From NCBI RefSeq assembly GCF_023101205.1, contig NZ_CP078078.1, positions 806,001 to 870,000 of the forward strand: DNA of 64,000 nt. Direction: 5' to 3'. This document shows positions 5,451 to 52,535 of the stretch, piece after piece (position 1 is the first letter of the stretch; each line of letters starts with the position of its first letter). The stretch comes from Microbacterium aurugineum. GTDB taxonomy: Bacteria; Actinomycetota; Actinomycetes; Actinomycetales; Microbacteriaceae. A program made the position numbers and the translations under genes. The notes beneath the pieces were generated by a model that was not told the origin of the DNA, did not search any database, and saw only the letters and a program-made list of their open reading frames with translations.

Positions 5451-6409
5451 CCGACACCGTGAAGTCAGACGCCGCCCTCAGCACGCGCGCGATCACCACC
5501 GGCGGCGGGTTCGAGGGCGCCGCAGGCCGCACTCGCAAGAAGCTGTCCCGGCCGTGGGCATCGGTGGCGTCCATCGTCATCGCGTTCATGTGGACGATCC
5601 CGACGCTCGGACTGTTCATCTCGTCGTTCCGGCCGCGGGATCAGATCCAGACCACGGGATGGTGGACGTTCTTCGCCGATCCGCAGGTGACGATCGAGAA
5701 CTACGTCGACGTGCTGCAGTCCGGCACGACGCAGCTCACCATCCTGGAGTCGTTCGTCAACTCGATCGCGATCACGATCCCGGCGACCATCGTGCCGCTG
5801 ATGATCGCTTCCATGGCGGCCTACGCGTTCGCCTGGATCGACTTCAAGGGCCGCAACGCGCTGTTCATCTTCGTGTTCGCGCTGCAGATCGTGCCGATCC
5901 AGATGGCCCTGGTGCCGTTGCTGAGTTCGTTCTCCCGCGGGCTCAACCTCTTCGGGCTGCAGGTCACACTGCCGCTCGATGCGTCCCAGGGCTACGCGCA
6001 GGTGTGGATCGCGCACTCGATGTTCGCGCTTCCGCTGGCGATCTACCTGCTGCACAACTTCATGTCGGAGATCCCCGGCGAGATCATCGAGGCCGCACGC
6101 GTCGACGGTGCATCCCGCGGGCAGATCTTCTTCCGTGTGGTGCTTCCGCTGACGATGCCGGCGATCGCCTCGGTCGCGATCTTCCAGTTCCTCTGGGTCT
6201 GGAACGACCTGCTCGTGGCGCTGGTGTTCGCCGACGGAGCCGCGGCGCCGATCACGAAGCTGTTGGCCGAGATCACGGGCACGCGAGGAAACGACTGGTA
6301 CCTGCTCACGGCAGGCGCCTTCGTCTCGATCATCGTGCCGCTGATCGTGTTCTTCGCCCTCCAGCGCTACTTCGTCCGCGGCCTGCTGGCCGGATCGACG
6401 AAGGGCTGA
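5447..6409 (+). CDS. Sugar ABC transporter permease (MalG-like)
   Basis: The second membrane subunit has 320 residues and about six membrane segments. Its EAA loop is EAARVDGASRGQIFFRVVLPLTMPAIAS, and it ends in QRYFVRGLLAGSTKG, a MalG-family signature. ATG 5447 overlaps the stop of the first permease (ATGA), so translation is coupled. No ATPase gene follows. Importers of this type in actinobacteria usually share a chromosomal MsiK/UgpC-type ATPase, which I infer here. Confidence 0.92.
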   Translation: MTDTVKSDAALSTRAITTGGGFEGAAGRTRKKLSRPWASVASIVIAFMWTIPTLGLFISSFRPRDQIQTTGWWTFFADPQVTIENYVDVLQSGTTQLTILESFVNSIAITIPATIVPLMIASMAAYAFAWIDFKGRNALFIFVFALQIVPIQMALVPLLSSFSRGLNLFGLQVTLPLDASQGYAQVWIAHSMFALPLAIYLLHNFMSEIPGEIIEAARVDGASRGQIFFRVVLPLTMPAIASVAIFQFLWVWNDLLVALVFADGAAAPITKLLAEITGTRGNDWYLLTAGAFVSIIVPLIVFFALQRYFVRGLLAGSTKG

Positions 6410-12010: not shown

Positions 12011-12054
12011 AAACATGAAAGAGCCCCCGCTGGCGCGGAGGCTCTTTCATGTTT
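12011..12054. terminator. Bidirectional terminator between the GNAT gene and tRNA-Ser
   Basis: A perfect 15-bp inverted repeat (AAACATGAAAGAGCC at 12011-12025, complement at 12040-12054) with a GC-rich loop. It starts at the CCA end of the tRNA and has A/T-rich arms, so it can terminate both the convergent GNAT mRNA and the tRNA transcript. Confidence 0.85.
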
Positions 12055-12141
12055 GGCGGTGACGGCGGGATTCGAACCCGCGGTTGCTTGCACAACACAC
12101 GCTTTCCAAGCGTGCTCCTTCGGCCGCTCGGACACGTCACC
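12054..12141 (-). tRNA. tRNA-Ser (anticodon GGA)
   Basis: On the minus strand the acceptor GGTGACG pairs with CGTCACC, followed by discriminator G and an encoded CCA. The anticodon arm CACGCTTGGAAAGCGTG gives GGA, and the T arm is CGGGTTCGAATCCCG. A long variable arm (TGTTGTGCAAGCAAC) fits a class II serine tRNA. It reads UCC/UCU codons. It directly flanks the RiPP cluster. Confidence 0.96.
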
Positions 12142-12252
12142 AAGGAACAACCTGTCCATCCTATCCGATCGGCGGAGCGCGACGTGACAGAGCGCTGTGG
12201 CGAAGCCCGGCATGCGGTCCTCTCCTGACCAGTATGACGCGTATGGAATATA

Positions 12253-12281
12253 TTGCTAGTTGTGTGAGTGCTCAATAGCCT
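12253..12281 (+). promoter_or_regulatory. Promoter of the daptide cluster
   Basis: TTGCTA at 12253-12258 and TAGCCT at 12276-12281 with a 17-base spacer lie in the most A/T-rich stretch of this region. Transcription would start near 12288, about 46 bases before the first gene. The region 12142-12333 holds nothing else that I can see, and no regulator gene is in the cluster. Confidence 0.5.
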
Positions 12282-12333
12282 CAGATGAGGACGGATCAAC
12301 TCCGTACCGCATCCGACGCTACTGGGGGAGACC

Positions 12334-13056
12334 ATGCGCGCCAGCTCGACCACGGCACGACCGGACAGTCACCGCACGGTGGCGGCATTCGAGCAGTACG
12401 TGACCGCGGAGCGCGCGATTCCGGGGTGCGCGGTGTTCTTCCTCGAGTCCGCGGTGCACCTCGACGAGGTGCGGGCGCTCGCCGAACGCGACGATGTGAT
12501 CTTCGTCCCTGCGGGGTCCCTCCCGAAAGTGGATCCGCGGGTCGTCCCGTTCGCCGGAGCGCTTCACTCGCCCGGCGACGAGATGAGCTTCGGCGGGCGC
12601 CACGCGTTCCAGCTGCAGGACTACCTCGCCGGTCGCTTCCGCTTCCGCGGAGGGCTCACGGTCGTCCGACAGGGGTCTGCGGAAGGACTCGCTGCATTCC
12701 TCCGTGATGCCGACACGGCCCGGGCGACCGGCATCTTCGCCGAACGGCTCCTCGACGGTGCCCTGCTGCTGGATTCCGCCGCGTCGTTCACCCGCGCGTA
12801 TCCGGTACCGGATTCTCTGGTGCGCGTGCACGTGACCGCGGACGGCGAGTACCGGGACGGCCCTGACGGACTCCTGCTCGGACGGGTGGGCGACGGGCGC
12901 GCAGACATCGAGGCCGTGGCCACCGAGAACGCCGGTCGTGGTCGAGCATTCGCGCGCATCGTGGACCCCCGGGTCCTCGAGGCGGATCTCGACGATCGGC
13001 CGTGGATCGAGTTGTACGTGTCGCTCGTGACGGCGAGTCGACGGGACCGCGTCTGA
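12334..13056 (+). CDS. Short paralogue of the daptide RiPP-recognition protein
   Basis: This 240-residue protein has no family I can name outside daptide-type clusters. It is clearly related to the next protein: DDVIFVPAG..RVVPFAGAL..GDEM.FGGRHAFQLQDYLAGRF (about residues 53-102) matches DDVILLPEG..RVVPYTGAL..GDEL.FGERGVELQDYVAAAF there. A second block, ARATGIFAERLLDGALLL, matches ARRTGVFPSALIDPRVLL. It lacks the last ~140 residues that hold the RRE-like region. GGGGGAG sits before ATG 12334, and its stop overlaps the next start (TGATG). I infer a partner or scaffold role with the full-length protein. Confidence 0.75.
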   Translation: MRASSTTARPDSHRTVAAFEQYVTAERAIPGCAVFFLESAVHLDEVRALAERDDVIFVPAGSLPKVDPRVVPFAGALHSPGDEMSFGGRHAFQLQDYLAGRFRFRGGLTVVRQGSAEGLAAFLRDADTARATGIFAERLLDGALLLDSAASFTRAYPVPDSLVRVHVTADGEYRDGPDGLLLGRVGDGRADIEAVATENAGRGRAFARIVDPRVLEADLDDRPWIELYVSLVTASRRDRV

Positions 13057-14105
13057 TGCGCGACGCACACCGCGGGCCCGGGGCGGACCTGGTCGGAGCC
13101 CGGGCGCTCCGGGAGTGGATCACCGGGATGCCGGACCGGTACGCGCGGGTGTTCCTGGTCGAAAGCGGCGCGCAGGCGGATCGTGTCGCAGGCGCAGCAG
13201 GACGAGACGATGTGATTCTTCTGCCCGAGGGGAGCGGGCCCTGTGCCGGACCGGCCCGTGTCGTCCCGTACACCGGCGCGCTGCAGGACATCGGGGATGA
13301 GTTGTTCTTCGGTGAGCGCGGCGTCGAACTCCAGGACTACGTCGCTGCGGCATTCCTGCAGTTCACCGGGCCGACCGCTCTCAGCCTCTTCGACGCGGTC
13401 AGCTGGCAGGCTCTCCTCGACGATGCCGAGCTCGCGCGACGGACGGGCGTGTTTCCCTCGGCACTGATCGATCCGCGAGTCCTCCTGGCGGACCGCGGCG
13501 CACTCACGGAACCGGGCGAGCTCGCGACCCCGAGCGCGATCAGAGTGCGGGCTGACGGCGCCGTCAGCGTCGGGGTCCAGGGCGATCCCCTCGGAACCGT
13601 CGACGAGCTGCCCGCCGTGCTCGCCGTGCCGCGACCCCGGGCCGTGGCCTTGGGAGGATCGGTGCCTCGAGAGGCGTTCGTCGCCGATCGGACGCTGCGC
13701 GAGGGGACGACGCGATACCTCTGCGCGACGGACCTCGTGAAGATGCTCCGCCTGGGCAACGGCGAGGCCCGCATCTCGGGGTTCGGGTGGGCGCTCGTCG
13801 ACGACGGCCTCGCGGATGCCGCCCCCTGGGCCGCGGATCCGTTCCTGATCGAGACCGCGGACGGCTTCGTCCTCGCAGACACGCGGACGTTGCGTCGACA
13901 GCTGCTGTCCCCGGTGGCCGCGCAGGTGGTCGCCGTCACACAGACGTCCACGACGCCGGAGGTCGCGGCGGAGCGCGTGGCTCGGCAGCTGGGCGGCTCC
14001 GTGGCCGACGCGCGAGCCCTGTGCCTCGAGGCCGTCACCATCCTCAACATCCGCTTCGGTACCCGAGCGGGCCTCGCTCGCCCGGCGAACGGCATCCGGC
14101 GTTGA
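13056..14105 (+). CDS. mpaB: Daptide biosynthesis RiPP-recognition protein (RRE at C-terminus)
   Basis: A 349-residue protein in two parts. Residues ~30-200 are shared with the preceding paralogue. The last part (about 261-335, FLIETADGFVLADTRTLRRQLLSP onward, then PEVAAERVARQLGGSVADARALCLEAVTIL) has the beta-strand/three-helix pattern of PqqD-like RiPP recognition elements, which hold the leader peptide. By position and partners it matches the recognition protein of the daptide (mpa) pathway; the letter B is from memory. The start is ATG 13056, overlapping the previous stop, rather than farther-upstream in-frame GTG/ATG codons inside the previous gene. The aminotransferase gene follows after 2 bases. 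Confidence 0.75.
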   Translation: MRDAHRGPGADLVGARALREWITGMPDRYARVFLVESGAQADRVAGAAGRDDVILLPEGSGPCAGPARVVPYTGALQDIGDELFFGERGVELQDYVAAAFLQFTGPTALSLFDAVSWQALLDDAELARRTGVFPSALIDPRVLLADRGALTEPGELATPSAIRVRADGAVSVGVQGDPLGTVDELPAVLAVPRPRAVALGGSVPREAFVADRTLREGTTRYLCATDLVKMLRLGNGEARISGFGWALVDDGLADAAPWAADPFLIETADGFVLADTRTLRRQLLSPVAAQVVAVTQTSTTPEVAAERVARQLGGSVADARALCLEAVTILNIRFGTRAGLARPANGIRR

Positions 14106-14107
14106 GC

Positions 14108-15361
14108 GTGCCGAACGCCGTGTGGAGCTCGATGCTCCCCGCGGATGCGACCTTCCCTCCCGATCGCGTCGCCGTCCGCGCCGCGGGACATCGCATCGAG
14201 TTCGCCGACGGATCCACACGCCTGTGCGCGACGAGCGGGCTCTGGAACGTTCCGCTCGGGTACGGGAATCCGGTCGTCGGCGAGGCCGTGGCCAGAGCCA
14301 CACACGATGCGTCGTACCTGACCCTGTTCCGCGCGTCGCATCGGTATGCCGAAGCCGCCGCGGAAGGTCTTCTCGACCTCGCGGACCCGACCAGGTACAG
14401 CCGCGTCATCTTCTCCACCTCGGGCGGCGCTGCGAACGATGCCGCCATGAAGCTCGCACGACAGTACTGGGCGCAGAAGGGCGCAGGATCCCGATCCCTC
14501 ATCGTCGGGCTGAAAGGCAGCTACCACGGCACGATGTACGGCAGCCACGCGCTCAGCGGAGACGACCTCCTGCAGTCCGTCTACTCCGTCGATCGCAGGT
14601 CGGTGCGCCACGTTTCGTCCAGCGATGAGGGTGAAGAGCTCGCCACCCTGTTGAAGCGGGAAGGGTCCCGAGTCGCCTCGGTCGTCGTGGAGCCCGTCCT
14701 GGGCAGTGGCGCATATGCGCTGACCGAGGCGTTCATCGATCGCCTCGTGCTGCTGCGTGAGGAATACGGGTTCCTGCTCGTGGCCGACGAGGTCGCGACG
14801 GGATTCGGGCGCACCGGCGCGATGCTCGCCACCGACGAGTGGCCGGCCGCTCCCGACGTCCTCCTCCTCTCGAAAGCACTGACGAACGGCGCGACGGGTG
14901 CAGCCGCGATCCTCGTGGGTCCCCGTGTCGCCTCCGAGTTCGCGCGAGGCGGGTGGACCTTCGTCCACGGGGAGACGCAGGCGGGAACGCCGGTGTGCGC
15001 GGCGGCCATCACCGCAGTGATGGAAGAGCTGCGTCGGATCGACGTGGAGACGACGACGAAGGCACTCGGGGCCGAGCTGTTCCGTCTGGCGACGGCGCTG
15101 AAGTCCGACGGATTGATCACGGAGGTCACGGGGCGGGGCTGCTTCGTGGGGATGGGGCTCCGCCACCACGATGAGCGCCGGCTGTCCTCCTCCGAGGTTC
15201 TCCGTGTGGTCTCCGCCATCGCCGACCACGGCGTCCTGGTGCAGCCCGGCCCCAGCTCCATCGAGCTGATCCCGGCCTACGGATTCACCTCGGAGGAACT
15301 CCGCACGGTGGATGCGGCCGTGCGCTCCGGCCTCGCGCGAGTGCAGGAAGCGGCAGCATGA
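14108..15361 (+). CDS. mpaD: Daptide class III aminotransferase
   Basis: A 417-residue PLP-dependent class III (omega) aminotransferase. Visible motifs: LGYGNPVVGEAV, STSGGAANDAAMK (phosphate-binding SGG near 105-107), GSYHGTMYG, VADEVATGFGRTG (Asp227 to the PLP nitrogen) and LLLSKALTNG (PLP Lys256). In the daptide pathway this enzyme aminates the C-terminal methyl ketone left after decarboxylation of Thr. The start is GTG 14108, 2 bases after the previous stop; ATG 14132 is the alternative, but would cut the N-terminal arm short. Its stop overlaps the dehydrogenase start (ATGA). Confidence 0.88.
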   Translation: MPNAVWSSMLPADATFPPDRVAVRAAGHRIEFADGSTRLCATSGLWNVPLGYGNPVVGEAVARATHDASYLTLFRASHRYAEAAAEGLLDLADPTRYSRVIFSTSGGAANDAAMKLARQYWAQKGAGSRSLIVGLKGSYHGTMYGSHALSGDDLLQSVYSVDRRSVRHVSSSDEGEELATLLKREGSRVASVVVEPVLGSGAYALTEAFIDRLVLLREEYGFLLVADEVATGFGRTGAMLATDEWPAAPDVLLLSKALTNGATGAAAILVGPRVASEFARGGWTFVHGETQAGTPVCAAAITAVMEELRRIDVETTTKALGAELFRLATALKSDGLITEVTGRGCFVGMGLRHHDERRLSSSEVLRVVSAIADHGVLVQPGPSSIELIPAYGFTSEELRTVDAAVRSGLARVQEAAA

Positions 15362-16542
15362 CCACGCACTTCACCGGACGCGTCCCGACCCTGTGGCACG
15401 GCCCCGGCGTCGCGCATCACGTGATGACGCACCTCACCGCGGGACGAGAGGTCCTCGTGATCGCGGACTCGGCGGTCACGGTTCCCTTCCGGGCCGGGGC
15501 TGCGGTGAGGACCATCACGGTGGACGCGCCGTCGGTGGATGTCACGTCGGTCTCCAGGATCGCGCGGCACATCGTTCGTCGGTCGCCCGAGGTCGTCGTG
15601 GCCGTCGGTGGGGGCAGCGTGCTCGACGCCAGCAAGATCGCCGCGCTCGCGCTCGCTCCGGGGAAGGTCTTCGACTATGCCATCGGTCATGCGGAGAAGT
15701 CCGCGCTGACCGTGCTGCCGGATGCGCCGCCGCCCGTGGAGATCATCGCCGTGCCGACGACTCTGGGCACCTCGTCGGAGACGAACAGCGTCGGCATCCT
15801 CAAGAACGGGAGCGGCTATCGGCTCATCGTCGGACGCTCGCTCAGACCCCGTCATGCCGTCATCGATCCACGCAACCTGGCGTCCCTCACCTACGGCGCC
15901 GTCCGTGAGGGAGCGCTGGAGGCGTTCCTGCGTCTCGCCGGTACGTCGACGAGTTCGCGACGAAGCGCCCGGGGGAACAGCGAGGCCGTCATCCTCGGGA
16001 GAGCCCTCCTCGAGACCGCCACCCAGGACGCCGGCTCGCCTGCGGGGCGGTTGCGCCTCGCACGGTTGAGCGCAGCCACCCAACGCGGTGCTGCTCTGCG
16101 CGGACAGGATCCCTACAGCGCTCGCCATTGGTATGTCGCGAACGAAGTGGCCTTCGTGCTCAGGACTCGCAAGATGGTCGCCACGGCAGCGGTGATCGCC
16201 GCGGTCTGGCGTCGCATCTGCGCGGGTGACACCCGCTGGGGAGATCGGCAGAGTCTCGAGGACTTCTGGTCGAGGGTCGCGAGCGGGGTGGCATTGCCGC
16301 TCGAACCGGCCGCGGGTATCGCCGCCCTCCTCGAACGCTGGGATATCCCGCTTCCGCCGCGACCGACCACGCGGGAGGTCGGCCGCATCTCGATGTCCAC
16401 CGAGGCGTCGTGGGGAGATCGCCGCCCGATGCTCACCGGCCTCGTCGCCGACGACATCCGTGAGGTCCTCCGCGGTTCCCGGTGGAGCGATCCGTGTGCC
16501 GGCGATCAACGTCGGCCCTCGACTGCCGTGCAGAGGAGGTGA
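15358..16542 (+). CDS. mpaC: Daptide dehydrogenase/oxidative decarboxylase (iron-ADH fold)
   Basis: A 394-residue protein of the iron-containing alcohol dehydrogenase fold. The NAD-binding GGGSVLDASK (residues 84-93) and PTTLGTSSE (133-141) are intact. In the daptide pathway this type of enzyme oxidises the C-terminal Thr side chain, and the beta-keto acid then loses CO2. In ordinary family members an Asp-x3-His pair sits in a DALTHAxE motif; here the equivalent stretch at 179-190 reads YGAVREGALEAF, so both ligands seem absent. The later His-rich motif is also poorly kept (VANEVAFVLRTRKMV). It may not bind iron or zinc. AGGAGG at its 3' end serves the first precursor. Confidence 0.83.
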   Translation: MTTHFTGRVPTLWHGPGVAHHVMTHLTAGREVLVIADSAVTVPFRAGAAVRTITVDAPSVDVTSVSRIARHIVRRSPEVVVAVGGGSVLDASKIAALALAPGKVFDYAIGHAEKSALTVLPDAPPPVEIIAVPTTLGTSSETNSVGILKNGSGYRLIVGRSLRPRHAVIDPRNLASLTYGAVREGALEAFLRLAGTSTSSRRSARGNSEAVILGRALLETATQDAGSPAGRLRLARLSAATQRGAALRGQDPYSARHWYVANEVAFVLRTRKMVATAAVIAAVWRRICAGDTRWGDRQSLEDFWSRVASGVALPLEPAAGIAALLERWDIPLPPRPTTREVGRISMSTEASWGDRRPMLTGLVADDIREVLRGSRWSDPCAGDQRRPSTAVQRR

Positions 16543-16546
16543 AGAG

Positions 16547-16681
16547 ATGATCAAGGACGTGGAAGAGCGACTCCGGTTCCAGGAGCTGGACGACATGGAG
16601 GCTCCCAGCTGGGAGAGCTTCTATCAGGGCGCCATCAGTGCGCTGATCCTCATCGGGATCGGCGCTGCCGCTGCGACGTGA
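16547..16681 (+). CDS. mpaA1: Daptide precursor peptide 1
   Basis: A 44-residue peptide. The leader is MIKDVEERLRFQELDDMEAP, and the core begins SWESFYQGAIS and ends LILIGIGAAAAT. The leader shares RFQELDDMEAP with the other precursors (consensus [ER]-F-x-E-L-[DE]-x-[MI]-[DE]-A). The core is a glycine/alanine-rich hydrophobic helix without Cys or Ser near its end and terminates in Thr, the residue converted to the N,N-dimethylated diamine in daptides. AGGAGG overlaps the mpaC stop 7 bases upstream, so it should be translated strongly. Numbering by gene order is mine. Confidence 0.88.
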   Translation: MIKDVEERLRFQELDDMEAPSWESFYQGAISALILIGIGAAAAT

Positions 16682-16723
16682 TCCCGTCGCCCGACGGAGA
16701 TCGAGACGAGGAAGGAGAGAGGT

Positions 16724-16849
16724 ATGAACACCGAAGTGCAGAGGCTCGAATTCACTGAGCTCGAGGCGATGGACGCTCTGAACAACACCGATGATTTCGT
16801 GCGGGGCTTCGCTGTCGGCGTCATCATCGGAATTCTCGCGCTGACCTAG
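16724..16849 (+). CDS. mpaA2: Daptide precursor peptide 2
   Basis: A 41-residue peptide with leader MNTEVQRLEFTELEAMDA and a core ending FAVGVIIGILALT. It is the most divergent of the three: the shared motif reads LEFTELEAMDAL, lacking the Pro, and the start of the core is acidic and polar (NNTDDFVRG). It still ends in Thr before TAG. GGAGAGAGG precedes ATG 16724. It lies 42 bases after precursor 1. Confidence 0.88.
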   Translation: MNTEVQRLEFTELEAMDALNNTDDFVRGFAVGVIIGILALT

Positions 16850-16883
16850 GAAGCGCATCGCCACGTGATGAAGGAGGTACGAA

Positions 16884-17003
16884 ATGCAGACTGATCTGCT
16901 GGAGTTCCAGGAACTCGAACGAATCGACGCGCCACTCGAGTGGTGGGAGCACGTCAGCTACATCATCGCCATCGTCGGCGGTGCCGCGGCGATCGCGACG
17001 TGA
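16884..17003 (+). CDS. mpaA3: Daptide precursor peptide 3
   Basis: A 39-residue peptide with leader MQTDLLEFQELERIDAP and core LEWWEHVSYIIAIVGG... ending AAAIAT. The leader motif LEFQELERIDAP is nearly that of precursor 1. The core carries two Trp and a His at its start and a hydrophobic Gly/Ala helix, again with C-terminal Thr before TGA. AAGGAGG lies 6-7 bases before ATG 16884. It is the last peptide gene before a strong stem-loop. Confidence 0.88.
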   Translation: MQTDLLEFQELERIDAPLEWWEHVSYIIAIVGGAAAIAT

Positions 17004-17009
17004 CCGGTC

Positions 17010-17041
17010 GGGGTGCGGGCGGTTCCGCGCGCCCGCACCCC
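17010..17041 (+). terminator. Stem-loop between the precursor genes and the methyltransferase gene
   Basis: A perfect 12-bp GC-rich stem (17010-17021 with 17030-17041) and an 8-base loop, 6 bases after the last precursor stop. There is no T-run, so it probably causes partial termination or protects the upstream mRNA, keeping precursor levels above those of the downstream enzymes. Confidence 0.65.
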
Positions 17042-17067
17042 CTCACTCCCGCGGAGAGGTGTGGTGA

Positions 17068-17907
17068 ATGTCAGGAACGATAACCGAAGCCATCGCGGCG
17101 CGACTCGACCGGGCGGGTGCGGTCCCTCGGGAACAGGACCTGTACACGGGCGAGGGGACCGACTTCTACGAGCGACTGGTCGGCGCCGATGCCGCGGAGA
17201 TCCGAGAGGTGCTGGCGCTCGCGAGAGAAGCCGCGGGTCCGGTCCTCGATGTGGCCGCCGGCAGCGGGAGGCTGACCATCCCGCTGGTGCGCTCCGGCCG
17301 ATCGGTGACCGCGCTCGATCTCTCCGACGACATGCTCTCGCACCTTCGTCGTGCCCTGCCCTACCATCCGAGGCTCGACTGTGTGATAGCCGACATGCGC
17401 GACTTCAGCCTGCCGCGTCCGTACGACCTCGTGGTCCTCGGTGCGACCTCCATCACCTTGTTGGACAGGGAGGGGAGGGCGCGCCTCTACGCGAGTGTGC
17501 GACGCCACCTCGCGCCGGGAGGGGTCTTCGCCTTCTCCGTCGCCGGAGGCGCCGCAGCGGAGAGCCTGACGGTGCCGAGCGAGCAGGAGATCCGTGTCCC
17601 CGGGCCCGGTCCCGGACCCGGCGGCGAGGAGACCTATCTGTTCTCGCAGCAGATGGAGGAGGACGGCGCGGCTCGCCTGGTCAACTGGGTGCGCCTCGCC
17701 GACGTCGTGGCGGGCGGCGACGTGCGCGTGCTCACGAGTCGGCTGCGTGTGCTCAGCCATGAGCTCCTCTCCAGCGAGCTCGTGGACGCCGGTTTCGCTG
17801 AACCTGCCGTCTCGCCCGTGCGGACGCACCCCGGAGCGGACATCCTTCTCCTCACGACGACGTGGGCCGGAACCCGGGATCGGGCGCGTGACGATGACAC
17901 CGCCTAG
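17068..17907 (+). CDS. mpaM: Daptide SAM-dependent methyltransferase
   Basis: A 279-residue class I methyltransferase. Motif I is VLDVAAGSGR (59-68), motif II ALDLSDDML (82-90), then CVIADMRDFSLPRPYDLVVLGATSI. In the daptide pathway it places two methyl groups on the new C-terminal amine, giving dimethyl-1,2-propanediamine. ATG 17068 follows GGAGAGGTGTGG. It is the first gene after the stem-loop, and its 3' end overlaps the protease gene by about 14 bases, so the downstream genes look translationally coupled. Confidence 0.87.
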   Translation: MSGTITEAIAARLDRAGAVPREQDLYTGEGTDFYERLVGADAAEIREVLALAREAAGPVLDVAAGSGRLTIPLVRSGRSVTALDLSDDMLSHLRRALPYHPRLDCVIADMRDFSLPRPYDLVVLGATSITLLDREGRARLYASVRRHLAPGGVFAFSVAGGAAAESLTVPSEQEIRVPGPGPGPGGEETYLFSQQMEEDGAARLVNWVRLADVVAGGDVRVLTSRLRVLSHELLSSELVDAGFAEPAVSPVRTHPGADILLLTTTWAGTRDRARDDDTA

Positions 17908-19588
17908 TTTCGCTCGGCGGCGAGACTCTCGCGCCCCGGTGCCGCTCACGGCCGAGGATCGTCCGCTTCTCGCCCCCGGTGTCGTGTTCGAGGAAGTGGG
18001 GGAGGCCGGGGTGTGGATCGCGCTGCTGCAGGGGGTGCCCTCGTCGAGGGTCTCGCGGGCCGTCGTCGATCTGCTGACGGCGATGGACGGCGAGACCACG
18101 CTCCGCGACCTGCGCACGCGCTTCGCCGCATCCGAGCCGCGGGAGGAGTTCCTCCTGCTCGTCCAGCGCTTCCGCGCCAGCGGGCTCCTGGCCGGTGACA
18201 CGAAGCCCCCGCCCGGCAGAGTGACCTACCGGCCCCCGTTCACGCTGCAGTTCGCGACGCTGCGTGCACCCGCGTTCTTCGACCGCTGGAATCGCCTGAT
18301 CGTCCCGCTCTCACGCCGAGGGGTTCTGGCATCCCTTCTGGTGGTGCTCTGCCTCGGCCTCGGCGCTGCGGCCCTGCAGACAGGTGAGGTGTGGGACGTC
18401 CTGACCATGCCGGTGTCGTTGCCCGGACTCGTGGGCGTCGTCATCGCGTTGTCCGTCATGACGCTGCTCCACGAGAGCGCTCATGGGCTCGCGCTCACAC
18501 GCTTCGGCGGCGAACCGCGCCGCGCAGGTTTCATGCTCTACTACCTCACCCCCGCCTTCTTCGTCGATGTGACCGACGGCTGGCGCCTCTCCGACCGGTG
18601 GCAACGTGTCGCGGTCGCGCTCGCCGGGCCGGCCGTGCACGCCGTCGCCGCCGCGGTCGCCCTCCTCGCCGCGCTCGCCCTTCCGGACCCTCTGATCCAC
18701 CAGGCGCTGTTGCTCCTCGCCGTGTCCTGCGTCGCGATCGTGCTGGTCAACCTGATTCCGTTCGTGCGATTCGACGGCTACATCGCGTTCATGAGTGCGC
18801 TCGACGAACCGAACCTCCGGGACCGGACGATTCACGACGGAGTGGACTTCCTGACCCGGATCCTGTTCGGCGGTCCGCGGACCGCACGGAGCCTCGATCG
18901 GTGGTGGAGCGTGCCGTTCGGTCTCGCCTGTCTCGTCGCCCCGATCGCGCTCGTGCTGTTCGCGGTCTCCCGCGTGGTGCGAGCGCTCGCCGGAGGCGGA
19001 CCGGTGCTGGGGGTCCTCGTCGTCGTCCTGGAAGCTGCCGTGGTGCTCGTCGGCATCGTGATCCTCTCGACGGCGCTGCGCCGCGTCCTTCGGTCAGGCG
19101 TCTCCCGGCTCCGCTTCGTCGCCGTCGGTGCGACGCTGATCGCGAGCATCGTGGTCGTGGGCGCCGTGATCCCGCTGCCGGTGACGGCGACGTACGGTTT
19201 CGTCACCCGCGGTGACCGTGTGCTCCTCGTGCAGCCGGGCACCGCCGCCGAGGCGGAGGTGCCGGACGGCGCCCCGGTCGAGCTGATGAGCGCCGGGCTC
19301 CTCGCGAGCGCGCGGGTCGGCGGGGGGACCATCAGGCCGGAGCCGCCGATGCCGACGGAGGTCCCCTGGGCGGTGCTCGTCCCCGTCGCGGCGGACGGCG
19401 TGGACGTCCCCGCAACGGTCATCGCCGGCGTGGACGTGGACGACGGCGGCGGGAGCACGCCGCCGACCGGACGGGCGCAGGTCGCGCTCGGCACGAGGAG
19501 TCTGTGGCAGACGCTCTGGGCGACCGGCGTGGTGTCGCCGCTGTCCGCCCTTCTGGACCAGAAGCACGAGAGGCAGGAAGATGACTGA
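17894..19588 (+). CDS. mpaP: Daptide membrane metalloprotease (M50-like) with N-terminal PqqD-like region
   Basis: A 564-residue membrane protein. Residues ~20-105 (PLTAEDRPLLAPGVVFEE... TLRDLRTRF... EFLLLVQRFRASGLL) follow the PqqD/RRE pattern. Membrane segments then carry the zinc site HESAH at 193-197 and NLIPFVRFDGY at 286-296, the second site-2-protease motif. The C-terminal ~150 residues form a soluble domain after the last membrane segment. It most likely removes the leader at or in the membrane before export. The start is ATG 17894 (GTG 17888 is possible), inside the end of mpaM. It overlaps the ABC ATPase gene by 8 bases. Confidence 0.82.
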   Translation: MTPPSFARRRDSRAPVPLTAEDRPLLAPGVVFEEVGEAGVWIALLQGVPSSRVSRAVVDLLTAMDGETTLRDLRTRFAASEPREEFLLLVQRFRASGLLAGDTKPPPGRVTYRPPFTLQFATLRAPAFFDRWNRLIVPLSRRGVLASLLVVLCLGLGAAALQTGEVWDVLTMPVSLPGLVGVVIALSVMTLLHESAHGLALTRFGGEPRRAGFMLYYLTPAFFVDVTDGWRLSDRWQRVAVALAGPAVHAVAAAVALLAALALPDPLIHQALLLLAVSCVAIVLVNLIPFVRFDGYIAFMSALDEPNLRDRTIHDGVDFLTRILFGGPRTARSLDRWWSVPFGLACLVAPIALVLFAVSRVVRALAGGGPVLGVLVVVLEAAVVLVGIVILSTALRRVLRSGVSRLRFVAVGATLIASIVVVGAVIPLPVTATYGFVTRGDRVLLVQPGTAAEAEVPDGAPVELMSAGLLASARVGGGTIRPEPPMPTEVPWAVLVPVAADGVDVPATVIAGVDVDDGGGSTPPTGRAQVALGTRSLWQTLWATGVVSPLSALLDQKHERQEDD

Positions 19589-20297
19589 ACACGCGATCGA
19601 GGTCCGAGGCCTCACGAAGAGGTACGGCCGCCGGACCGCCGTGGAAGACCTGTCCTTCGTCGTGCCGCGCGGGACGATCGTCGGGCTCCTGGGGCCGAAC
19701 GGCGCGGGCAAATCGACGACGCTGCGCACGATCGTCGGCTTGCTCCGGCCGACGAGCGGCGAGAGCCTCATCGACGGTGTTCCGTTCTCGGCGCTCGACA
19801 ACCCCGCATCGCACGTCGGTGTGCACATGGACGGCTTCGGTTTCGAGGCGGGCATCACTGCACGGCGGCACCTGGAGATCTGTCGGCTCGCGGCCGGTGC
19901 GCCGCGCGGCCGGACCGACGAGGTCCTCGAGGAGGTCGGGCTCACCGCCGACGCGCGTCGTCGCGTGAAGACGTTCTCGACGGGGATGGCTCAGCGGCTC
20001 GGCCTGGCCGCCGCCCTCATCGGGGCGCCGCCCACGCTCATCCTCGACGAACCGGCGAACGGCCTGGACCCCGACGGGATCCGCTGGCTGCGCAGGTTCC
20101 TCCGCCGCTTCGCCGAACGCGGCGGCACCGTGCTGGTCGCCAGTCATCAGCTGTCAGAGCTCGAACACATCGTGGATGAGGTCGTGGTCATCAAACGGCG
20201 AGCACTCTTCGCCGGACGACTCGGCGACCTGGTCACGAGCAACGGCGACTCCCTGGAGAGCAAGTACTTCGAACTCGTCGAGGAAGTGCCGGTATGA
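19581..20297 (+). CDS. ABC transporter ATP-binding protein of the daptide cluster
   Basis: A 238-residue ATPase with Walker A GPNGAGKST, signature SYGMA-like FSTGMAQRLGLAAAL, and Walker B LILDEPANGLDPDG. The H-loop is VLVASHQLSELEH. It belongs to the group that energises peptide or antibiotic exporters and immunity pumps with separate membrane subunits. ATG 19581 overlaps the protease stop, and the gene overlaps the next permease (ATGA). It probably exports the mature daptides and protects the host; no separate immunity gene is seen. Confidence 0.93.
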   Translation: MTEHAIEVRGLTKRYGRRTAVEDLSFVVPRGTIVGLLGPNGAGKSTTLRTIVGLLRPTSGESLIDGVPFSALDNPASHVGVHMDGFGFEAGITARRHLEICRLAAGAPRGRTDEVLEEVGLTADARRRVKTFSTGMAQRLGLAAALIGAPPTLILDEPANGLDPDGIRWLRRFLRRFAERGGTVLVASHQLSELEHIVDEVVVIKRRALFAGRLGDLVTSNGDSLESKYFELVEEVPV

Positions 20298-21022
20298 GGG
20301 GCACGATCCAGAGCGAGGCCCTGCGCTGCGTGAGCGGGCTCTCCCTCCTCGCCGTCTACCTCGTCGCGTTCCTCCTGCCCGCCTTCGTGCTGTTCTCCGA
20401 CGGATCGCGCCTCGACGTGGCCGGCCTCGATCCCGCCGCGGCGACCACTCGTCTCCTGGAACCTCTCGCCTGGTCGGCGGTCTCCGCGGCGTTCGTCGGC
20501 GCGTACGGCGTCACTCGTGAGTACTACTACGGCTCGATGGACCGGACCCTCACCAGCGTCGGATTCCGGCGTGCGTTCGCCGGAAAGCTCGTCGCGGGCG
20601 TCCTCGTCGCGCTCGCCCTGTCCGTCGGCCTCTTCGCCGTGTGGACCACGGGTGTCGCCGTCTTCTTGAGCCGGAGCGGTCTCTCGCTCACTCTGACGCC
20701 GGACGGGTGGCGCCTCTGCGCGGGAGCTCTGGTCGGCGGCGTGCTCGGTGCGCTCATCGGGGGCGCCATCGGCTGGATCACCCGCAACTACTACGTGACG
20801 GCCGTCTTCGTCCTCGTCCTGCCGATGGTGGGGGAACTCGCACTGCTGCGCACGGTGCCGGAGGTGGCGAAGTTCTCGCCCGGGCTGGCGCTCGCGGCCT
20901 TGGGCGTGCCCGGGTATCAGGGTCGCCTGCTCGAGTTCGGCCCGGCGCTCGTCGTCGCACTCGCGTTGACCGCGGGGCTGGTCGCGGTGGCGTGGACCGG
21001 TGGTCGCAGGAGGGCGGGATGA
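20294..21022 (+). CDS. ABC transporter membrane subunit 1 of the daptide cluster
   Basis: A 242-residue protein with about six membrane segments, starting with an amphipathic MRGTIQSEALRCVSG. The second hydrophobic block contains YGVTREYYYGSMDRTLTSVGFR, the cytoplasmic loop typical of ABC-2 type permeases (REYRYGTITRTL-like), which contacts the ATPase. It overlaps both neighbours by ATGA junctions. It differs clearly in sequence from the second permease, so the two likely form a heterodimer. Confidence 0.85.
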   Translation: MRGTIQSEALRCVSGLSLLAVYLVAFLLPAFVLFSDGSRLDVAGLDPAAATTRLLEPLAWSAVSAAFVGAYGVTREYYYGSMDRTLTSVGFRRAFAGKLVAGVLVALALSVGLFAVWTTGVAVFLSRSGLSLTLTPDGWRLCAGALVGGVLGALIGGAIGWITRNYYVTAVFVLVLPMVGELALLRTVPEVAKFSPGLALAALGVPGYQGRLLEFGPALVVALALTAGLVAVAWTGGRRRAG

Positions 21023-21747
21023 TCGTCCGCGCGCTCCGAGCCCACGCGCGCGGTGCGACCGGCGACATCGTCCTCCTCTGGGTGGTCGCGGCCGCCTTCG
21101 TGTTGTCGACTTCGATGGCGACGAGCGTTCCTGCGGAGCTCGCCGAGGCACCGGCCGGGGTTCGCGCCGCACTCAGTGCGCCGTTCAGCGCGGTGCTCGC
21201 GACCTATGGCGCGGTGCTCGCGGCGGTCTACGCTTCCTTCCGCTACACCGTCGACCGGCGGGATGGCGTCATCGCGCAGCGGCTGATGCTGCACCCCCGG
21301 TGGGTGACGCTGCTCAGCCGGACACTCGGGTCTGCTCTCGGCGGCGCCGTCGTCGCTCTCGCGGGACTCGCCGGTGGCCACATCGCGCTGGCCGTCGCGA
21401 TGGGCGGTGTCCCGGTGGGCTGGGCATCGGTGGGATCCGCACTGGCCGTCGGCGCAGGCGCCGGCCTCTGGGGACTGGGGGCGGGCATCGTCGTCCAGAA
21501 CCATCTCGTGGCGCTCTTCGTCGCGTCGATGTCTCTGGGCAGCGCCGTCCTCGTCGCGATGTTCTGGAGCGCCGCTGCCCACGGCTTCCCGCTGATCGCG
21601 CTGCTCGACGCTTTCGGGTTCGACGTCACGGCCGTGGGGGTGTCGCCAGCCGACGGATCCGGTGGCTCTGTGCCGGTCGCCGTCGGATGGATGCTGGCGG
21701 CTCTCGTCGCGGGGGGAGTCACCTTCATGAAACGCGATGTGACGTAG
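21019..21747 (+). CDS. ABC transporter membrane subunit 2 of the daptide cluster
   Basis: A 242-residue protein, exactly as long as subunit 1, with about six membrane segments. The loop FRYTVDRRDGVIAQRLMLHPRW lies in the place of the REYYYG loop of subunit 1, and the C-terminal hydrophobic segment ends FMKRDVT. ATG 21019 overlaps the previous stop. It is the last gene of the cluster. After it only 58 bases remain before the unrelated trhO gene with its own promoter. Confidence 0.83.
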   Translation: MIVRALRAHARGATGDIVLLWVVAAAFVLSTSMATSVPAELAEAPAGVRAALSAPFSAVLATYGAVLAAVYASFRYTVDRRDGVIAQRLMLHPRWVTLLSRTLGSALGGAVVALAGLAGGHIALAVAMGGVPVGWASVGSALAVGAGAGLWGLGAGIVVQNHLVALFVASMSLGSAVLVAMFWSAAAHGFPLIALLDAFGFDVTAVGVSPADGSGGSVPVAVGWMLAALVAGGVTFMKRDVT

Positions 21748-21805: not shown

Positions 21806-22696
21806 GTGGCAACCCCCAAGATCGTCCTCTTCTATGCGTTCACGCCCCTCGCCGATCCCGAGGCCGTCCGTGTCTGGCAACGCGACCTCGGCGAGGCGCT
21901 CGGCCTGCGTGGGCGCCTGCTCATCTCGAAGGACGGGATCAACGGCACCCTCGGCGGCGATATCGGCGTGTTGAAGAAGTGGCTGCGATCGTTCCGCTCC
22001 TACGGCCCGTTCGCCGATGCGGACATCAAGTGGAGTGAGGGGACGGGGCTGGATGCTGAGGGGCGCAGCCTCGATTTCCCCAAGCTCAGCGTGAAGGTGC
22101 GCGATGAGATCGTCTCATTCGGTGCGCCCGGTGAACTGCGCGTCGATGAACACGGGGTCGTCGGCGGAGGCACCCGGCTGACGCCCGAAGAGCTGCACGG
22201 ACTGATCGACGAGCGCGGAGACGAGGTGGTCTTCTTCGACGGCCGGAACGCCCTCGAGGCGCAGATCGGGAGGTTCCGCGGCGCGGTCGTGCCCGACACC
22301 GAGACGACCAGGGACTTCGTGAGACTGCTCGACTCCGGCGCCTACGACGATCTCAAGGGCAAACCCGTCGTCACCTACTGCACCGGCGGCATCCGCTGCG
22401 AGGTGCTGTCGAGCCTGATGACGGCGCGCGGCTTCGGCGAGGTGTACCAGCTCGAGGGCGGCATCGTCCGCTACGGCGAGAAGTACGGCGACGACGGGCT
22501 GTGGGACGGATCGCTCTACGTGTTCGACGGCCGCGGTTCGGTCGACTTCTCGGACCATGCGCGCGTCATCGGGGAGTGCGTCGGATGCGGGGTGCCGACC
22601 AAGCGCACCGCGAACTGCCCCGACCTGTCGTGCCGCTCGCAGTTCGTGGTGTGCGACACCTGCGTGGCCGTGCCCTGCACGGCCCATGCCACGTGA
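21806..22696 (+). CDS. trhO: tRNA uridine(34) hydroxylase (rhodanese family)
   Basis: A 296-residue protein that hydroxylates U34 in certain tRNAs using O2 (TrhO/YceA family). The N-terminal acylphosphatase-like part is [20 protein letters not shown]. The rhodanese domain has its catalytic loop [12 protein letters not shown] (Cys near residue 191), and a C-terminal Cys-rich part ([19 protein letters not shown]...CDTC) may bind zinc. GTG 21806 stands 6 bases after a -10 box. It marks the return to core genes after the RiPP cluster. Confidence 0.92.
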
Positions 22697-49894: not shown

Positions 49895-52446
49895 GTCACT
49901 CGCACGGCGGTGGACTTGCTCGTGGCGGTGCCGGGTGCCGGATCCGTGGAGCTCACGACAGCGTTCGGCGGGTTGCACGAGTTGTCGAAGTCGATCGACG
50001 TGAAGCCGGCGGCACCCAGCGCGGCCGCCGCGTCCGCACGGGACATCCCGGCCAGGTTCCCCGGAACCGTGGTCCCCTGCCCGTTGCTGGGGGAGATCGT
50101 CACGGTCGTGCCTCCTGCGGCCTGCCCGGAGGGGTCCTGGGCGACGACGATGTTCGTCGGCTGGTCGCTGTCGACAGCCGGCCCGTCGGTGACCGAGAAG
50201 CCTCGGCTCTCCAGCGTCGACCGCGCTTCGTCCATCGTCATCCCGACGACGTTCGGCACCTCGGTGAGTACCCGCCGGGTCAGGTTGTTGTCGGGGCGGG
50301 GGAAAGCGTCTCCGCCGTAGGCGCCGTTGGCCGCAGCCTGCGCTGCCTTCGCCAGCGGGTACCGCATGTTGTTGAGCAGGTGGTCACCGGCTCGCTTCTG
50401 GTAGATGTCGGACTGGCCCTTCCAGCGCCCGGCCCACACCGCGGTCGTGACCTTGGTGCTGGACTCGATCATCATGGTCGACCAACGGTCGTGGGTTCCG
50501 GTCTTGCCGATGAGCGGGGTTCCGTCGAACGGGTTGGCGCGGGCACCGGTGCCGCCGCCGGACATCACACCCTGAAGCGCGTAGGCGGCGGTCGCCGCGA
50601 CCTCCTTCGAGATGACGCCGTCGGTGCAGGACGACTTCGGGAGCTCGCGGTCCTTGCCGTCGGGGCCGACCACGCGGTCGATCGCACGCGGTGTGCAGTA
50701 CTTGCCGCCGCTGGCGACCGTGGCGTAGGCGTTGGCCATGGCGATCGGGGAGATGTTCTTCGGGCCGAGCACGTCGTACGGCACGTTCTCGTCCGTGACC
50801 TTCTTGCCGCTCGCGAGGGTGACGCCCATGCGGTCGGCGACCTGGTTGATCTCGCAGATGTCCAGCTTCGAGGCCATCGCGAAGTAGCCGCTGTTCAGGG
50901 ACTGTCGGGTGAAGTCCATGACGCTCGCGGTGTAGCCGCCGCCGCCGCCGAAGTTGCCGATCTCCTTGGTGTTGGTGGTCTGTGGGCTCTCGCACACGGG
51001 GATCTTCAGGTTCGTCTGCACCCGGCCGTTGAGGACCTCGTTGACGGAGTGGCCCTTCTCGAGCCAGTCGATCAGGGTGAAGAGCTTGTAGACCGATCCG
51101 ACCTGGAACCCGCCCGAGTTGCCGTGCGTCGTGTCTCCGGCGAAGACCAGCGAGCTCTTCGCCAGGTCGTCCGTCGTGGTCTCATCGAACTGCGTGTTCT
51201 GCGTGATCGACAGGATGCGTCCGGTGCCCACCTCGATCGATACTCCGGCAGCACCGAAGTAGTCGTTGTCGTAGTTGGCCGGCACGATGTCCTTCATCGC
51301 CTGCGCGGCGGGGTCCTGGATGCGGTAGTCCAGCGAGGTGTAGATCTTGAGGCCCCCGCGACGGAGCAGGTCGGCCCGGTCCTGCGGCTCCTTGCCGAAT
51401 GCCTCGTCGTTCAGCACGATCGACTTCACGTACTGGCAGAAGTAGGCGTTGGCGCCCGCGGAGGCACAACCCTGCGTGGGCGGGTTGAGCGAGGGAGTGA
51501 TCTCGGAGGCGTCGGCCTCGTCGTACTGCGCTTGGGTGATCTTGCCGTCCGCGAGCATGCGGCCGAGCACGTAGTGACGCCGATCCTTCGTGAGGGCGTA
51601 GCCGCTCTCGGCAGTGTTGAGCGCCTCACCCTTCGAATTCGTGATGGTGCCCTCGGGCTTGTCGATGCGGTACGTGTTGGGGTTCTGCACGATGCCCGCC
51701 AGCGTCGCCGCCTGCGCGACCGTGAGCTTCGCCGAGGTCGTGTTGAAGTAGTAGTTGGCCGCGGCCTCGATGCCGTAGACCGTTCCGCCGAAGTTCGCGA
51801 TGTTCAGGTAGCCGAGGAGGATATCGTTCTTCGAGAACTCCTTCTCGATCTGGATCGCGTAGCGCATCTCCTGGAGCTTGCGCTCGATGCCGTCGGCGCC
51901 CGTCGCGTTCGTCGCGTCCTTCCAGCACTGCTGCAGATCCTCGTTGTGCGTCTCCGAGGTCGTGTCGACCTTCTGCTCGCACTCCTGGATCAGCACGTTC
52001 TTCACGTACTGCTGGCTGATGGTCGATGCACCGCGGCTGGAGGTGCCGCGGACGTTGTCGATCAGCGCCTTCACCGTCGCGCCGACGTTGACGCCGCCGT
52101 GGCTGTAGAAGCTCTTGTCCTCACTGGACAGGATCGCGTCGTAGAGCACTGGGGAGACCTGCTCGTAGGTCACGGGCACACGATTCTGCTCGTAGAACGA
52201 CGCGAGGGCGACGTTCTTGCCGTCGGGCGTCGTGGCGTAGATCGTGGACTGCTCCATCGGCGTACCCGGGTTGAGGTTCTCGGGGAGCTGGTCGAAGAGC
52301 GTGAGGGCCTGGGTGCCGGCGAGGCCGGTCATCGTGAGGACGGGCGTGACGCTCGCTGCGACCAGGAGTCCGGCGACGGCACTCAGCCCGACGAGCCCGA
52401 CGAGTCCGCCGAGCACGCCTCTCACCGTGCGATTCTTTTGGGGCAT
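49885..52446 (-). CDS. ponA: Bifunctional penicillin-binding protein with two PASTA domains
   Basis: An 853-residue class A PBP that polymerises and cross-links peptidoglycan. One N-terminal membrane helix (VLGGLVGLVGLSAVAGLLVAA) is followed by the GT51 domain (ILSSEDKSFYSHGGVN, RGASTISQQYVKN). The transpeptidase has SVYK in QVGSVYKLFT, SLNS and KTGTHD. Two PASTA domains end it (VPNVVGMTMDEARSTLESRGF and a second to the C-terminus). The start is ATG 52446, 7 bases after TACGAT on the minus strand; the upstream ATG at 52506 precedes this box. The metallophosphoesterase gene is coupled downstream. Confidence 0.93.
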   Translation of the reverse strand: MPQKNRTVRGVLGGLVGLVGLSAVAGLLVAASVTPVLTMTGLAGTQALTLFDQLPENLNPGTPMEQSTIYATTPDGKNVALASFYEQNRVPVTYEQVSPVLYDAILSSEDKSFYSHGGVNVGATVKALIDNVRGTSSRGASTISQQYVKNVLIQECEQKVDTTSETHNEDLQQCWKDATNATGADGIERKLQEMRYAIQIEKEFSKNDILLGYLNIANFGGTVYGIEAAANYYFNTTSAKLTVAQAATLAGIVQNPNTYRIDKPEGTITNSKGEALNTAESGYALTKDRRHYVLGRMLADGKITQAQYDEADASEITPSLNPPTQGCASAGANAYFCQYVKSIVLNDEAFGKEPQDRADLLRRGGLKIYTSLDYRIQDPAAQAMKDIVPANYDNDYFGAAGVSIEVGTGRILSITQNTQFDETTTDDLAKSSLVFAGDTTHGNSGGFQVGSVYKLFTLIDWLEKGHSVNEVLNGRVQTNLKIPVCESPQTTNTKEIGNFGGGGGYTASVMDFTRQSLNSGYFAMASKLDICEINQVADRMGVTLASGKKVTDENVPYDVLGPKNISPIAMANAYATVASGGKYCTPRAIDRVVGPDGKDRELPKSSCTDGVISKEVAATAAYALQGVMSGGGTGARANPFDGTPLIGKTGTHDRWSTMMIESSTKVTTAVWAGRWKGQSDIYQKRAGDHLLNNMRYPLAKAAQAAANGAYGGDAFPRPDNNLTRRVLTEVPNVVGMTMDEARSTLESRGFSVTDGPAVDSDQPTNIVVAQDPSGQAAGGTTVTISPSNGQGTTVPGNLAGMSRADAAAALGAAGFTSIDFDNSCNPPNAVVSSTDPAPGTATSKSTAVRVTCE

Positions 52447-52453
52447 ACGCTTG

Positions 52454-52459
52454 ATCGTA
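52454..52459 (-). promoter_or_regulatory. -10 box of the PBP gene (leaderless start)
   Basis: TACGAT on the minus strand followed by 7 bases and the ATG at 52446. Confidence 0.4.
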
Positions 52460-52535
52460 GGGGAGTTCCCTGAATACCGCCTTTGACGAGCCCGACGCGG
52501 AATCACGGCGTCGCGCCCCGATCGACAGGAGTGCC

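Follow-up and report, generated by a model that had tools for sequence, protein, structure and literature searches.

The window analysed here, a stretch of 64,000 nucleotides from Microbacterium aurugineum (G000:C1:806001-870000, within a single-contig genome of 3.63 Mb), carries on its forward strand, at 12334-21747, a complete twelve-gene operon for daptides, small peptides with a C-terminus converted into an amine and the class whose type cluster is mpa of Microbacterium paraoxydans. We consider it very likely that this is a daptide operon of the mpa kind whose first gene, B1, encodes a protein from a foreign lineage of the adaptor DapB. The genes follow one another in the order B1, B2, DapD, DapC, three precursors, DapM, DapP and three ATP-binding cassette (ABC) transporter genes, with overlapping stop and start codons between most neighbors. 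The daptide class is already known, and it is the natural DapB without a ribosomally synthesized and post-translationally modified peptide (RiPP) recognition element (RRE) that sets this cluster apart as a variant. With such a headless DapB, nature itself provides a way of asking whether DapB only delivers substrate or whether its unannotated N-terminal domain also activates DapC. The truncation that abolishes the activity of MpaB recurs in nature, but in a second copy whose remaining domain is under selection.

All five enzyme and adaptor models and all three precursor models of NCBIfam for daptides were passed by genes of the window. B2 (13056-14105, 349 amino acids), which we take as the DapB of the cluster and which consists of an N-terminal domain and a C-terminal RRE-like fold, scored 252.2 bits with NF041823 (cut-off 150). 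DapD (14102-15361, from a TTG start at 14102 or, also on sequence, a GTG at 14108), a class III pyridoxal phosphate-dependent aminotransferase, scored 568.9 bits with NF041821 (cut-off 450) and 216.1 with PF00202. DapC (15358-16542), the oxidative decarboxylase with an iron-dependent alcohol dehydrogenase (iron-ADH) fold, scored 332 bits with NF041822 (cut-off 300) and 73.2 with PF00465, the domain expected of DapC in Actinomycetota. DapM (17068-17907), an S-adenosylmethionine-dependent methyltransferase, scored 260.8 bits with NF041820 (cut-off 175), while DapP (17894-19588, from an ATG at 17894), an intramembrane M50-type leader protease with HESAH and FDGY in its translation, of the kind that in daptide clusters is expected to be RRE-fused, was recognized by its score of 391.2 bits with NF041824 (cut-off 300). 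The Pfam results concur, giving aminotransferase, iron-ADH, methyltransferase and ABC ATPase domains and, with a score barely at the threshold, M50. The three short precursor genes at 16547-17003 are A1 (16547-16681, 44 amino acids, predicted core SWESFYQGAISALILIGIGAAAAT; NF041805 for MpaA1, 94.1 bits), A2 (16724-16849, 41 amino acids, predicted core NNTDDFVRGFAVGVIIGILALT; NF041806 for MpaA2, 95.6 bits) and A3 (16884-17003, 39 amino acids, predicted core LEWWEHVSYIIAIVGGAAAIAT; NF041807 for MpaA3, 83.8 bits). Chance similarity of these short sequences is excluded because each exceeds the cut-off of its own model, which is 40 bits in every case. Each has Thr as its last residue, and the leaders have the motif FxEL(D/E)x(M/I)(D/E)A in common, in agreement with the ELExMEAP-like leaders of the class, save that A2 lacks the Pro and has Leu before the cut.

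A first-pass annotation, made from the letters alone, had read this region as a daptide cluster in which three precursors with a common leader motif and C-terminal Thr accompany an aminotransferase, a dehydrogenase, a methyltransferase, a protease and an ABC exporter, in overlapping genes on one strand. Every one of these elements was found, and the dehydrogenase, aminotransferase and RRE protein, whose dissimilarity to daptide families would have spoken against that reading, all scored above the daptide cut-offs. The same annotation counted a single RRE-type protein, which corresponds to B2; there are in fact two DapB-family genes, and the RRE-less B1 had been overlooked. Judged by its sequence, the operon is a genuine and complete daptide cluster and a further member of a described class.

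B1 (12334-13056, 240 amino acids) matches positions 10-232 of the 331 in the NF041823 profile with 139.4 bits, short of the 150 at which that model assigns an equivalog. Its AlphaFold2 model (predicted local distance difference test score, pLDDT, 87.2; predicted template modelling score 0.87) is that of a self-contained fold, which ends after a helix at 225-234, so that the C-terminal RRE is absent, whereas B2 continues with RRE-like strands and helices at 239-329. The stop codon of B1 overlaps the start codon of B2 (TGATG). We rejected sequencing error as the cause of the truncation in the clade of the window, since the proteins P0001, P0002, P0003 and P0004 end alike and the stop/start overlap is clean; for P0022, an RRE-less protein on a contig of 1151 bases, such an error may be the cause.

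To place B1 we used DapB matches from 68 of 366 Microbacterium genomes (65 above the cut-off; none of 14 control genomes gave a match), and our comparison set comprised 68 stretches from 67 other genomes together with the window. Two adjacent DapB genes were present in 18 of the 68 genomes, that of the window included. The DapB tree contained 82 proteins, four divergent ones having been dropped and a G085 fragment and one G225 piece not entered. A 100/100 branch grouped the 18 B1 proteins with the sole DapB of five genomes (G121, G269, G236, G286 and G108), with the other 59 rows opposite, and within the B1 side the sole DapB proteins of the five were not separated from the B1 proteins. When the window was compared with the divergent clusters of these five genomes, identities were 51-59% for B1 and 31-34% for B2, with 50-51% for DapD and 32-36% for DapC. 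Because of this branch and these identities we assign B1 to the DapB lineage of the divergent cluster; the same two lines of evidence led us to reject a recent tandem copy of B2. Very probably, then, B1 did not arise recently from B2 but is a DapB from a different daptide-cluster lineage that has been retained ahead of B2. Against this stands that the tree was flagged for long branches meeting at G214_B. Capture by recombination at a shared site and survival after replacement both fit as the origin of B1. On the B2-lineage tree the presence of B1 switches at least six times.

The divergent cluster occupies the same site as that of the window, with its core genes in the same order; a GNAT gene was seen upstream in two of the five stretches and a rhodanese gene downstream in four, the rest perhaps lying outside the stretch or contig. 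Its precursors differ from those of the window (for example FEELESMDTP-DFWTWYAAVKIG...), and its sole DapB retains the RRE, unlike B1. Two of these clusters, L100 (reverse complement, 5905-6334) and L094 (6000-6447), have three short Thr-ending precursors of other types, examples from L100 being MDLLIEELPTMDAPSEWSDFVNGVGMGIAIVVIAAGLT and MDLSFEEIETMDAPEPWYIIVGDIVILIGAVVAIT; there the motif scan caught just one of the three. When 398 Microbacteriaceae genomes were drawn evenly, few of them Microbacterium, the other eight matching genomes reached only 28-38% identity to B1.

Absence of the RRE is not confined to the window. With B1 as query we found 67 proteins, 16 of them RRE-less; the query being RRE-less itself, the count is too low for remnants without the N-terminal domain, of which P0066 and P0067 are examples, and P0032 was counted as full-length despite an out-of-frame stretch in its RRE. 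Fifteen of the 16 form three clades (9, 3 and 3 rows), and the sixteenth, P0022, is doubtful, its contig being too short to trust. Since the tree requires four label changes, that of doubtful P0022 included, we count three or more losses of the RRE. On contigs of at least 5 kb the domain was absent from 8 of 40 B1-type proteins, a set that takes in single DapB proteins from the divergent clusters, and was missing or broken in 2 of 72 B2-type proteins; the latter two (P0178 and P0180) are frame-broken genes, not clean deletions. With these excluded the contrast is 8/40 against 0/70 (Fisher p 2e-4, an optimistic value as the rows are related). Among the 18 genomes with two DapB genes, four (G000, G016, G126 and G156) have an RRE-less B1, from two events on the tree, and the G156 protein (P0054) falls in a separate clade and has a different tail from the others.

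Between the window and G126 the ratio of nonsynonymous to synonymous rates (dN/dS) was 0.288 for B1, 0.283 for B2 and 0.10-0.33 for other cluster genes. The B1 comparison comprised 42 nonsynonymous changes in 526 sites and 47 synonymous changes in 194, a nonsynonymous deficit (Fisher p 3e-8) which, at the sequence level, shows RRE-less B1 to be under purifying selection, at a level like that of B2 within its own clade. Full-length B1 adjoining B2 gave 0.30 and 0.32 for its two domains (pooled, 9 pairs). In genomes with a full-length B1 the RRE of B2 had a dN/dS of 0.45, compared with 0.25 (7 pairs) for the RRE of a type I DapB that stands alone. This difference may hint that labor is shared with B1; the hint is weak because divergent clusters, which have one DapB, also gave 0.40 for its RRE (4 pairs), and the pairs in these comparisons overlap and the samples are small.

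Full-length B1-type proteins conserve 93 columns of the N-terminal domain, and the 15 RRE-less proteins compared, with gaps ignored, retain 50 of these without change. A change at position 105, and likewise at position 138, was seen in 12 of 15 RRE-less proteins and 4 of 49 full-length ones, across all three clades; positions 93, 99, 101, 102 and 135 were changed in two or three of the clades and position 32 in one. P0022, P0066 and P0067 were not part of this test, whose sites were selected with the very data in which the pattern is seen. In the B1 model the changed positions fall within or next to two loops, 97-107 and 133-136, in a part of lower confidence (block 101-110 has a pLDDT of 75, and the block so numbered in B2 one of 92). 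The simplest reading is that the patch formerly contacted the lost RRE, the alternative being a lost contact with DapC.

What B1 does is a separate question. We infer, with somewhat less than even confidence, that it acts independently of the leader, as an accessory subunit that binds DapC or the B2-DapC pair. Several points weigh against any active role. According to passages of PMC10036551, mpaABCDMP is sufficient for the mpa products and MpaB without its RRE is inactive; L013, an mpa-like locus, has no B1. A proposed tie between B1 and precursor A2 also failed: Leu at position -1 of A2 occurs in 18 of 18 two-DapB genomes and in 12 of 38 single-DapB loci with a recognizable A2 (G157 being taken as single-DapB though only about 480 bases upstream are left on its contig), but the supported branches of the tree yield a single independent pair (p 1 in a sign test). 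In more distant comparisons dN/dS was higher for RRE-less B1 than for B2 (0.46 against 0.33 with G156, 0.41 against 0.33 with G193), flanking housekeeping genes are far tighter (window-G126, GNAT 0.08 and rhodanese 0.04), and the loss of an otherwise conserved patch could be decay. With G194 the values were 0.32 for RRE-less B1 and 0.28 for B2.

These observations bring in the idea that B1 is a decaying relic, an inert protein that is of use solely because the TGATG overlap passes translation on to B2. It would accommodate that overlap, the recurrence of RRE loss, the changes at positions 105 and 138 (with rarer ones at 93, 99, 101, 102 and 135), the faster evolution of RRE-less B1 relative to B2 in comparisons with distant genomes, and the existence of loci (L010, L011, L013 and L015) that have the other cluster genes without B1. 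However, within its own clade the amino-acid constraint on B1 is like that on B2, the three RRE-less clades have diverged in sequence yet retain the N-terminal domain, and the RRE-less protein is modelled with a confident fold; we regard decay as possible rather than probable. It is doubtful that B1 is a brake, binding DapC without substrate and thereby lowering or timing daptide output. Retention of the N-terminal domain after loss of the leader-binding one, and the published inactivity of truncated MpaB (PMC10036551, in part), would suit a brake, but no result here separates it from a helper, and full-length B1 beside B2 is constrained in both domains, which does not point to an inhibitor. 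The accessory-subunit reading can be carried further, in a form that we think unlikely but worth stating: the N-terminal domain of DapB would itself activate DapC, separably from leader binding, and B1 would be a natural RRE-free form from a rival same-site cluster, one that has shed its RRE repeatedly because it serves B2-DapC structurally, as a partner, and that may in this way also escape competition with B2 for the leader.

For the chemistry, the route published in the relevant passages of PMC10036551 and PMC12338566 has DapB and DapC forming a ketone, DapD an amine (with L-Lys as the amine donor of TfDapD, PMC12338566) and DapM a dimethylamine, after which a protease removes the leader. 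By homology, the window enzymes in all probability perform the steps demonstrated for the mpa and Thermobifida enzymes. B2 would bind the precursor leader via its RRE and present the C-terminal Thr to DapC, which would take CO2 off it to leave a ketone; DapD would convert the ketone to an amine, DapM would dimethylate it and DapP would remove the leader, the ABC transporter exporting the peptides and/or protecting the cell. The expected outcome is three hydrophobic peptides, each with two amine ends. When 9knp, an iron-ADH-family chain, was aligned to DapC, it had Asp and His where DapC has Glu and Arg. This segment is presumably the location of the metal ligands of iron-dependent alcohol dehydrogenases. 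Although these two positions are not retained, it is very unlikely that the cluster is silent or that its peptides are made without the amine end, as no frame break was seen in the genes read, G016, of the same species, retains cluster genes 97-100% identical to those of the window, and loss of metal coordination is a trait described for a working TfDapC (PMC12338566, in part). Separately, EGALEAFLR accounted for 24 of 30 pattern matches for a DapC motif across the 69 stretches scanned.

Our rules for core, cut site and mass are supported by L013 (strain LCT-H2), since its predicted peptides with the N,N-dimethyl-1,2-propanediamine end (2363.31, 2232.27 and 2339.29) reproduce the m/z of 2363, 2232 and 2339 measured for the mpa products (PMC10036551). 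Given this agreement, and a Pro(-5) in the leader as named for mpa in passages of the same paper, L013 can serve as a stand-in for mpa. By the same rules the window peptides would have [M+H]+ masses of 2393.32 (A1), 2353.31 (A3) and, for A2, 2288.31 if cut after Leu(-1) or 2401.40 if cut ahead of it, each 17 Da less than its core without modification; none of them equals a published mpa value. Of the three products, that of A2 is the most uncertain and tells to that extent against the predicted set, because Leu replaces the mpa Pro before the cut and a P(-1)A change in MpaA1 lowered processing (PMC10036551, in part). The cluster would thus add three predicted daptides, near to but distinct from the characterized ones, and the earlier suggestion that the copy and its products may be undescribed holds with respect to the type cluster.

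A scan for loci in which each species was represented by a single genome returned 16, of which 15 are Microbacterium daptide clusters (L014 being frame-broken) and L016 is a match to a short stretch of DapC only. The site in the window is bounded at left by a tRNA-Ser (GGA) gene (12054-12141, reverse strand, ARAGORN) and at right by a rhodanese-domain gene (21806-22696, forward strand; PF17773, PF12368 and PF00581) that lies 3' of the cluster in 15/15 loci, and G070 shows the site without a cluster (GNAT, tRNA-Ser, about 1.1 kb, rhodanese). Upstream of B1 a consensus scan found a weak promoter-like candidate, CTGACC-18-TATATT, on the forward strand at 12225-12254 (9/12 bases), one of two such sites (one per strand) in the 10 kb region against a shuffle mean of 0.3. 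The first-pass annotation began the region at 12253, which falls in this promoter-like stretch; the first coding base is 12334. The operon ends with an ABC transporter ATPase (19581-20297; PF00005, 99.1 bits; nearest NCBIfam model TIGR03740, 188.9, below its cut-off of 309.75) and two membrane proteins (20294-21022 and 21019-21747), both without a Pfam match and both present in 15/15 Microbacterium loci.

Several side observations were made during this survey. L111, L112 and L113, divergent daptide-like clusters, have methyltransferase and aminotransferase matches in one open frame (4271-6572 in L111), which suggests a natural DapM-DapD fusion, and L057 and L111 are divergent daptide-like Microbacterium clusters whose precursors belong to the LEAP/MEAP-G(W/F)W type. 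In L109 (G225; also L014), a two-DapB cluster, B2, DapP and the final transporter gene are each split over two frames, and this cluster is decaying or badly assembled. L084 (G246) has a full DapB match and a rhodanese neighbor, with no further cluster gene found in the fetched stretch. Elsewhere in the window, 50380-52473 holds an open reading frame of 697 amino acids without a Pfam match that may not be a gene.

Among named relatives the nearest by cluster is Microbacterium sp. CBA3102 (97% in DapC, in a comparison that possibly left out the genome's own records), the three precursors of which are identical to those of the window. The window cluster is, on sequence comparison, not the mpa type cluster of M. 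paraoxydans DSM 15019 (PMC10036551, in part), although the core genes are alike and the window precursors match the MpaA1, MpaA2 and MpaA3 models. For its published study mpa was cloned into Streptomyces albus J1074. Measured against the stand-in L013, DapB to DapP of the window are 57-73% identical; L013 has a single DapB whereas the window has B1 and B2, and the truncation of MpaB was artificial while that of B1 is natural. We found no mention of a second or RRE-less DapB in literature searches or in main-text passages of PMC10036551, PMC12338566, PMC12670281 and PMC12710340. The tfDap and saDap systems, as presented in parts of PMC12338566 and PMC12670281, follow the same DapB, DapC, DapD, DapM and DapP logic as the window, and, in comparison with them, no YcaO, lanthipeptide dehydratase or luciferase-like gene was among the window operon genes read. 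A further parallel is with the co-resident RiPP pathways of PMC13381572 (in part): there, as in the window, two related RRE systems meet in one host, but in the former the RREs discriminate between leaders, whereas in the window one adaptor drops its RRE.

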